A DNA stretch of 64,000 bases from Candidatus Saccharimonadota bacterium. Its GTDB lineage: Bacteria > Patescibacteriota > Saccharimonadia > Saccharimonadales > Saccharimonadaceae. The stretch is taken from assembly GCA_017619315.1 (NCBI GenBank), contig JAFZSN010000001.1, forward strand, positions 79,979-143,978. The letters run 5' to 3'. The translations under genes and the position numbers were made by a program. Below, piece after piece: positions 4,752-5,321 of this stretch; the first letter of the stretch is position 1, and every line of letters begins with the position of its first letter. Under the pieces are notes generated by a model. The model saw nothing but the letters and a program-made list of their open reading frames with translations, was not told the DNA's origin and did not search any database.

Positions 4752-5189
4752 CTATCTGGTGTAAGCTAAATTCTGTGCCATAGCTTGAGTTTCAAGTGCT
4801 ACCAAGCGTTCTGCGTCATTGATGGACGAATTCACGCAGTGTTTGACACGTGCTTTCTCTTCGGCTTTCTTTGCATCATTCCATCTATCCAGAGTACCAA
4901 CTAGATACCCAGTAATTCGGCGTAGTCTCTCAAATTTACCTTCATCAAACCATTCAGCATGCTCGTTAAAATACTCTTTCATTGCTGCATCACCAGCCTT
5001 CGCACCGATTAGCTTCATCCCTACCTCTACTAGGCAGGAAACATGCATAGTTTCATATTGATCAAACTCAGCGAGTGCCTCTTTCACTTCCTTCTGTGTG
5101 ACCTTGGCATACTTCGCAATCGACTTTTCAAACCTCTTGAGATCGAAGTTTTCGATATCGTTTGGGTTTTTGTATACGATTTTTTTCAT
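4752..5189 (-). CDS. Stand-alone NrdD-like glycyl-radical-loop protein
   Basis: A 145-residue protein. The start at 5189 follows AAAGAAAGG; the ATG at 5213 lacks a ribosome site. Residues 87-117 contain RRITGYLVGTLDRWNDAK and ARVKH, which match the C-terminal glycyl-radical loop of class III (anaerobic) ribonucleotide reductase NrdD; Gly94 would be the radical glycine. The large NrdD barrel is absent, as is the CxxC..CxxC zinc site that normally precedes the loop (only Cys52 and Cys118 remain). The N-terminal 85 residues are helical and faintly ATP-cone-like (FDLKRFEKSI), but this is weak. By analogy with GrcA/YfiD, which replaces a damaged radical domain of pyruvate formate-lyase, it could be a radical-loop spare part or a regulator of NrdD. 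That function is inference. Its promoter carries a NrdR-box-like palindrome. Confidence 0.75.
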   Translation of the reverse strand: MKKIVYKNPNDIENFDLKRFEKSIAKYAKVTQKEVKEALAEFDQYETMHVSCLVEVGMKLIGAKAGDAAMKEYFNEHAEWFDEGKFERLRRITGYLVGTLDRWNDAKKAEEKARVKHCVNSSINDAERLVALETQAMAQNLAYTR

Positions 5190-5266: not shown

Positions 5267-5321
5267 ATTCTAACCCCACATATAGCGTATGTCAAGACCC
5301 AATATACACTAAATATAGTGT
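5267..5321 (-). promoter_or_regulatory. Promoter with NrdR-box-like operator
   Basis: Read on the minus strand, TTGACA (5295-5290), a 17-base spacer and TAGAAT (5272-5267) form a sigma70-type promoter for the NrdD-like gene. Just upstream, 5306-5321 is the palindrome ACACTAAATATAGTGT. It matches the published NrdR box (acaCwAtATaTwGtgt) at 15 of 16 positions, the only mismatch being a weakly conserved base. A weaker palindrome, ACATA-N5-TATGT (5278-5292), overlaps the spacer and the edge of the -35 and could be a second, degenerate half of the usual NrdR pair. The centres are about 28 bp apart, less than the usual 31-32. Confidence 0.75.

Follow-up and report, generated by a model that had tools for sequence, protein, structure and literature searches.

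What does a protein do that has the glycyl-radical loop of an enzyme and none of its catalytic parts? The question is raised by a gene for 145 amino acids (aa) in a stretch of 64,000 nucleotides (nt), here called the window, from a Candidatus Saccharimonadota bacterium (assembly GCA_017619315.1, contig JAFZSN010000001.1, positions 79,979 to 143,978). The loop is that of NrdD, the class III (anaerobic) ribonucleotide reductase (RNR), and a preliminary description of the window had taken the protein, of only 145 residues, for a stand-alone NrdD loop that might serve as a spare part or regulator of NrdD. The analysis reported here indicates that the small protein is very probably the subunit that bears the radical in a class III RNR whose two pieces are encoded by unlinked genes. 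The sequence evidence for this reading consists of a complementary cut in two genes, their exact co-occurrence, their conservation, the failure to find any other RNR, and the order of branches in a tree. A two-chain class III RNR with its radical loop supplied in trans is very likely as a gene architecture and likely as a mechanism.

The small protein and its radical loop

The open reading frame (ORF) begins with the start codon at 5187-5189 and ends with the stop codon at 4752-4754, as given by translation. The features of the gene are as follows.

4752..5189, minus strand: gene for the stand-alone glycyl-radical protein, 145 aa (translation, PF13597 match, 193 relatives, and the ratio of nonsynonymous to synonymous polymorphism, pN/pS)
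4938..5189, minus strand: N-terminal domain, residues 1-84, with a predicted ATP-cone-like fold (AlphaFold2, Foldseek) and no ATP-cone profile match
5034..5036, minus strand: codon of Cys52, a residue that follows the state of the partner NrdD (see below)
4839..4937, minus strand: glycyl-radical loop, residues 85-117, equivalent to PF13597 positions 532-562; besides NrdD, the only PF13597 match of the genome
4908..4910, minus strand: codon of Gly94, the putative radical glycine (RITGYLVG), aligned with RITGYLVG of Prevotella copri NrdD (PcNrdD) in structure 8p23
4755..4838, minus strand: C-terminal tail, residues 118-145, conserved among bacterial stand-alone proteins
5267..5295, minus strand: promoter-like TTGACA-17-TAGAAT (11/12), some 78 nt before the gene's start codon, from a consensus scan only (5 such sites in the region against 1.9 expected)

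Residues 85-117 match positions 532-562 of the 562 in PF13597 (E 2.8e-7, 30.0 bits, with a cut-off of 26.2), residues 82-117 match the NrdD model NF011292 (E 1.4e-12, 47 bits, the full-length cut-off being 736), and residues 86-118 match the C-terminus of PcNrdD in 8p23 (E 1.8e-5). The radical glycine of PcNrdD is Gly711 (PMC11226230; papers are cited by such numbers, each for the part of its text that was available). Residues 1-81 and 119-145 are outside every NrdD match, and by eye the tail is unlike NrdD tails. A Pfam search of the protein (E up to 1) returned only NRDD and a sub-threshold Mnd1; the NCBIfam and Pfam models that match describe whole NrdD, and none defines the stand-alone loop as a family. 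The ORF and the profile and structure matches thus confirm the assignment made in the preliminary description, whose motifs, RRITGYLVGTLDRWNDAK and ARVKH, are both present in the translated protein. It was also correct in finding no catalytic barrel and no zinc site; these, together with the thiyl-radical cysteine loop, are only in the partner NrdD. A chance match, which the description had itself considered, is ruled out by the PF13597, NF011292, and 8p23 matches together with 193 relatives.

A complementary NrdD in the same genome

The source genome has 847,604 bases in 11 contigs and is 98.5% complete. A six-frame search finds two PF13597 matches only, and they are complementary: an NrdD covers positions 2-529 and the small protein 532-562. 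The partner NrdD, 731 aa long, is encoded on another contig (C3) and ends a few residues past its zinc motif, CPHCGRLEGDLPFEKVSSCAKGE, at a place where intact relatives continue, as in CPSCGREEGDMPFERLRRITGYLVG. It has an ATP-cone (PF03477, E 1.3e-21), and its residues 1-714 align with residues 5-704 of PcNrdD (E 1.4e-185). Cone, barrel, cysteine loop, zinc site, and radical loop of a class III RNR are therefore all in the genome, not on one chain, and judged by sequence the two genes together are one complete class III RNR. Neither a second intact NrdD nor a class I or II RNR was found in the genome at its 98.5% completeness, and the six-frame search gave no further NrdD loop.

An ORF in the same locus (L001, 3330-3881) overlaps the nrdD stop codon and is a radical S-adenosylmethionine protein by PF13353 and PF04055; from these matches and its position next to nrdD, we read it as NrdG. 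Where the preliminary description had suggested looking for full NrdD and NrdG, an NrdG-like ORF is thus present and the only NrdD is cut at profile position 529 of 562. PF01228 (Gly_radical) is the domain of the GrcA/YfiD family. A role as spare part for pyruvate formate-lyase is ruled out, the genome having no PF01228 match over the cut-off (best E 0.0099, within the NrdD frame).

The complementary cut bears on whether the small protein is only a spare part in the manner of GrcA/YfiD, replacing the loop of an oxygen-cleaved NrdD and otherwise dispensable. Spare parts for further glycyl-radical enzymes have been held possible (PMC8683613), and such a role is probable in 20 related genomes whose NrdD is intact. 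In the window genome and 36 others, however, NrdD has no loop to damage, which makes this explanation very unlikely there. The small protein is not a spare here and is most likely an obligatory subunit, because the NrdD of the genome has no loop of its own.

Co-occurrence and conservation in the class

The class sample comprised 244 genomes, each at least 80% complete, of which 95 match PF13597. NrdD ends at PF13597 position 529 or 530 in 37 of the 244 (a row count). One of the 37, G230, has its NrdD in two contig pieces and was omitted from the NrdD tree and from NrdD pN/pS; G086, where the match is broken by a stop and ends at position 540, was not counted as cut off. Stand-alone genes were sought with a profile of A1, an alignment of 80 rows that holds the window-type form (type 1) only: the window protein and 79 of the best 80 loci, the remaining one, whose protein is identical, being omitted. 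A high-scoring stand-alone (E < 1e-80) is present in 37 genomes, and these are the identical set to the 37 with a cut-off NrdD. In 20 further genomes, 11 in genus group g1 and 9 in g8, an intact NrdD occurs together with a form that scores lower (E 1e-53 to 1e-66). The gap in score between the two forms is partly an artefact, because A1 holds type 1 only; presence and absence are unaffected. In g1, an NrdD match occurs in 64 genomes, with none listed without one, and a stand-alone accompanies 37/37 cut-off NrdDs and 11/27 intact ones (Fisher P 2.7e-8, uncorrected for kinship), leaving 16 g1 genomes with an intact NrdD and no stand-alone. The spare-part role of the preliminary description is probable for 20 of the 57 genomes with the protein and fails for the window genome, whose NrdD is loop-less.

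Among the cut-off enzymes, MGCRTR, HGGQ, and the cone motifs are present in 37/37, GYLVG in 0/37, and the zinc motif CPxCGR in 36/37, the exception being the contig fragment of G230. Among the stand-alones, the radical glycine motif is present in all 37 and all 20. Gly94 and the whole stretch from F86 to E111 are invariant across the 80 rows of A1; two stand-alones of the same form outside A1 have Arg in place of Lys108. In the 37 genomes, pN/pS of the small protein is 0.20 for residues 1-84, 0.05 for residues 85-117, and 0.16 for residues 118-145, and in the 20 spare forms 0.32, 0.12, and 0.30 for N-terminal domain, loop, and tail; synonymous sites are saturated in both sets. With the invariant loop and low pN/pS, the preliminary description's other concern, an unconserved remnant, is ruled out.

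The same figures bear on decay. The genomes are small and no other RNR was found in them, as might be expected if NrdD were decaying in symbionts supplied with deoxyribonucleoside triphosphates by a host, the small protein being a leftover. However, pN/pS is 0.089 for the cut-off NrdDs (n=36) and 0.05 for the loop, with synonymous sites saturated, the catalytic motifs are kept, and other lineages of the phylum with similar cuts retain the loop as a gene; decay is accordingly very unlikely.

PF02867, the class I/II RNR family, is present in 74 of 99 genomes sampled from the class and in 0/57 of those that bear a stand-alone. The g1 and g8 genomes examined (57, and also 14 and 6 among the 99) are without class I/II RNR, an apparent switch to anaerobic-only nucleotide reduction in these groups. 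Counted from its first ATG, the nrdG-like ORF often measures about 183 aa in cut-off genomes, compared with 161-174 aa in many genus relatives with intact NrdD; the added length is an N-terminal extension, and the ORF of some g8 genomes is also longer.

Two residues accompany the split. Cys52 of the small protein is found in 37/37 stand-alones paired with a cut-off NrdD and 0/20 paired with an intact one, so that it is fixed with the split, and the zinc motif of the cut-off NrdDs has His711 (CPHCGR) in 36/36, where the nearest neighbours have Ser. The cut-off NrdD tails (n=36) have at least two Cys in 29 cases, one in 4, and none in 3. That Cys52 might be bridged to the NrdD tail by a disulfide or a metal was considered and set aside: the relation is a correlation only, and 3/36 tails are without Cys.

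A probable route from spare part to subunit

A tree was made from 72 NrdD bodies with the loop region removed, of which 36 are cut-off, 20 intact with a stand-alone, and 16 intact only. The last were chosen for a fetched frame of more than 480 aa and the same NrdD type, and G133, with an interrupted frame, was omitted. All cut-off enzymes fall into a single clade (SH-aLRT 98), and its nearest neighbours, G163 and G180 and then G148, have an intact NrdD and a stand-alone. Over this tree the stand-alone comes or goes 10 times, as suits a dispensable part, and never within the cut-off clade, where 3.6 to 4.7 changes would be expected at the outside rate (P 0.027 to 0.010). Because the cut-off clade sits beside genomes with intact NrdD and a stand-alone, and because presence is constant inside it, the stand-alone most likely arose first as a spare, and NrdD later lost its own loop once.

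Split NrdD elsewhere in the phylum

Separation of the loop is not confined to the window's relatives. A phylum sample of 286 genomes has 71 that match PF13597, and in 33 of these, from 15 family codes, NrdD ends soon past the zinc site and a separate loop ORF of about 40-84 aa is directly downstream, for example MKKVKRQKCEVYSRVVGYIRPISQWN. The split NrdDs continue for 4-36 residues past the last CxxC in 31 cases and for 52 in the divergent G287, with G517 excluded from the measure; G413, where the end of NrdD is next to a run of N, is outside the 33. Another 4/71 belong to g1 and are of the window's kind. A motif pattern caught 17/26 mini loops, since it required 26 letters after the motif. 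In a tree of 56 NrdDs of the same type (29 split and 27 joined), there are at least three changes of state, whatever their direction, and the window clade, with another NrdD type outside this tree, adds one change.

L284-L319 and L324-L377: Patescibacteria split NrdD and mini-loop loci

These loci bear on whether the pieces are rejoined into one working chain by trans-splicing, frameshift, or read-through. In 13/33, the mini gene keeps the frame of NrdD beyond the stop (TAA or TAG in the 10 whose stop was read), and some pairs were listed with one shared open-frame length, although direct translation shows intervening stops. The frame differs in the other 20/33, gap lengths vary, and an AGGAGG-like site precedes the ATG of the mini loop in several of the 33 and not in others. 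Since relatives vary in stop, frame, and gap length, recoding or read-through is unlikely; in the window genome the genes are on separate contigs, and the product of the small one includes an N-terminal domain of its own, of 84 residues. Rejoining is on these grounds highly improbable.

Two other arrangements were seen in the phylum. G526 (L319, L337) has an intact NrdD followed by an extra 88-aa gene that ends in the same radical loop. In G330, G377, G425, G460, G473, and G488, NrdD frames of 1,025-1,557 aa have a match interrupted near profile position 157 or elsewhere; inteins or similar insertions are possible.

Loops in viral sequences

IMG/VR contigs carry relatives of the small protein with the N-terminal domain (L223-L227, 43-57% identity) as well as mini loops of 46-94 aa. 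Thirty viral records were searched; they were chosen from viral loci, may be fragments, and include some near-copies. The loop piece only is present in 24 (in one of these, just what follows the glycine), an intact NrdD in 3, an interrupted NrdD in 1, an intact NrdD with a separate loop in 1, and no match in 1. Apart from the record of L241, no other NrdD piece was found in the searched records of viral loop loci. Loop ORFs of about 46-119 aa are at L228, L230, L231, L233-L241, L244, L252, L253, L259, L264, L278, and L280. By their sequences, the viral loop ORFs are candidate phage-borne spare parts for host NrdD. A tblastn search matched 14 phage and 28 plasmid records, none over 80% of the query; most of the phage matches are in unannotated records, and one of the 14 was examined.

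Two phage loci depart from the simple pattern. In the stand-alone of L242 (2998-3276, 3973-4185), the frame breaks right after the glycine codon and the loop resumes at about 3973; the 187-aa ORF between the two halves looks like an inserted element, and an Rfam search for an intron in L242 gave one match, at E 0.66 and far below the gathering score, and no intron. In Eggerthella phage EL753P1 (L281, OP172808.1, 1-3100), the annotated nrdD ends past the zinc site with no loop, and loop-coding DNA about 500 nt further on starts at the end of an annotated ORF of 42 aa and continues in another frame. This is possibly another split nrdD, or a damaged one.

The N-terminal domain

The AlphaFold2 model of the small protein has residues 1-80 at a predicted local distance difference test (pLDDT) of 74-87 by block and most of the loop below 55, and orders the N-terminal domain as strand, strand, helix, helix, strand, helix, helix. 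The 50 of 133 Foldseek matches listed for this model are all RNR or NrdR (the best with probability 1.00), as are 48 of the 50 listed for the model of a phage relative. On these models, the domain is tentatively taken as cone-like in fold. PF03477 has no match in the sequence of the small protein at E up to 10 and is absent among the 25 families listed of 42 for 80 members. Profile comparison with NrdD cones is weak, since 2/200 column shuffles scored equally well, and its register is at odds with the fold. Origin of the domain from an NrdD cone by internal deletion has the agreement of the predicted folds and an indecisive sequence comparison, and such descent is not claimed.

By analogy, the domain would probably serve as a docking handle on NrdD. 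According to the parts of the papers available, the cones of PcNrdD pair into tetramers with dATP (PMC11226230), StNrdD shows no such cone pairing (PMC12662201), and the two disagree as to an action of cones on the radical domain. The cone is also a regulatory module of other RNRs in these papers, and this would favour a regulatory or decoy role, in which the small protein blocks the barrel of NrdD. For the regulator proposed in the preliminary description there is no positive evidence, and the complementary loss of the NrdD loop and the invariant radical motif both speak against it; of the explanations weighed here it is the least credible.

A proposed two-chain enzyme

We propose that the large piece, NrdD, keeps the ATP-cone, the barrel with its thiyl-radical cysteine loop, and the zinc site, and that the radical loop would be supplied in trans. 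The small protein would bind NrdD so that its loop lies inside the barrel or close to it, and NrdG would take a hydrogen from Gly94. The loop would then insert and hand the radical to the active-site cysteine of NrdD, and nucleotide reduction would follow. Binding of the two proteins, activation by NrdG, catalysis, and docking are steps that we infer from the sequences.

Several observations weigh against the two-subunit reading. The relatives of the small protein are, by record titles, metagenome assemblies or drafts: among the best 80 of the 193, 79 are titled Candidatus Saccharibacteria and one Candidatus Nanosyncoccus alces, and the closest named relative, whose protein is 99% identical, is an assembly of Candidatus Saccharibacteria obtained from sheep ileum. 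(A second alignment, A2, joined 36 A1 loci and the window protein with four phage proteins.) The large and small genes are unlinked in this genome. The 37 genomes are a single clade, so their co-occurrence is one origin and not 37 tests, and the branch-length-aware test of retention gives a modest result (P 0.010 to 0.027). For the cone-like fold, the models have mean pLDDT 70.5 and, for the phage relative, 72.7, the best Foldseek E values are 0.013 and 0.10, and sequence comparison gives no confirmation. In the tree of the stand-alone genes, the 20 spare forms are separated from the 37 as a group of their own (94/85), although the data do not reject a topology in which the three neighbours join the 37 (p-AU 0.254). 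The chromosomal place differs too. In all 37, the gene is within 0.8 kb of a presumed mutM-like gene, and a presumed polA-like gene is in the examined flank in 30; neither is in the flanks of the 20 spare forms, of which at least 1.2 kb was examined. The separate grouping and the other chromosomal place leave vertical descent from the spare form neither established nor rejected. A plasmid blastn search with the neighbouring polA-like gene gave nothing informative.

A broader reading joins the bacterial and viral evidence, and we hold it tentatively, as somewhat less than an even chance. Class III RNR in much of Patescibacteria would be a two-subunit enzyme with a separate, replaceable radical subunit; loops would travel as spare parts, phages included, and repeatedly permit loss of the host loop; and in Saccharibacteria a cone-like domain would dock the radical subunit and might tie docking to nucleotides.

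If the two-chain form is true, the radical loop is a detachable subunit, and loop movement, activation by NrdG, repair of oxygen damage, and regulation by the cone become testable by mixing parts. Concrete candidates for NrdD spare parts, bacterial and phage, are now at hand, and a cone-like domain fused to a radical loop bears on the dispute over cones acting on the radical domain. The lineage would also illustrate a route from a repair part to an indispensable subunit. A search of the literature by titles and abstract openings, with most subscription journals and all preprints outside it, found no split class III RNR or stand-alone NrdD loop. Such pieces may have escaped large surveys of RNRs, because one survey, in the text available, discarded sequences of fewer than 400 residues (PMC9531940).

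Comparison with known systems

E. coli GrcA/YfiD and phage T4 Y06I are likewise small separate proteins that repeat the C-terminal loop of a glycyl-radical enzyme, and GrcA/YfiD, which the preliminary description named as the nearest parallel, is indeed the closest working one. In the portion of PMC8683613 available, YfiD and Y06I are the only validated spare parts and others are merely possible. The N-terminal half of YfiD is disordered by nuclear magnetic resonance (PMC8683613), and that of the window protein differs from it. Y06I is phage-borne, and viral contigs carry loops here as well; however, GrcA/YfiD and Y06I serve pyruvate formate-lyase, while the loop here is that of NrdD (PF13597) and the small protein does not match PF01228. 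The partner of GrcA/YfiD keeps its own loop, as does NrdD in the 20 relatives, whereas the NrdD of this genome has none, and from this loss it follows that the small protein would be obligatory, unlike GrcA/YfiD.

Among the RNRs, NrdB of class I, a metal-containing ferritin-like protein, stores the radical for the catalytic chain on another protein. The likeness is the radical on a separate protein; the difference is that here it would be on a glycyl-radical loop, presumably installed by NrdG. Class II RNR uses adenosylcobalamin, and the piece split off in NrdJ carries no protein radical. NrdJa/NrdJb of Pseudomonas aeruginosa, a split class II enzyme, is also an RNR in two chains (PMC9669993), but differs in these two respects from the present case, in which it is the radical loop that is split off. 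Class III RNRs are described, in the sources as far as available, as carrying the radical glycine on the catalytic chain. PcNrdD (8p23) has the same cone, barrel, cysteine loop, zinc site, and radical loop, and all of these align with the parts found here; in PcNrdD they are on one chain (PMC11226230), whereas here the loop is on a second, unlinked gene.
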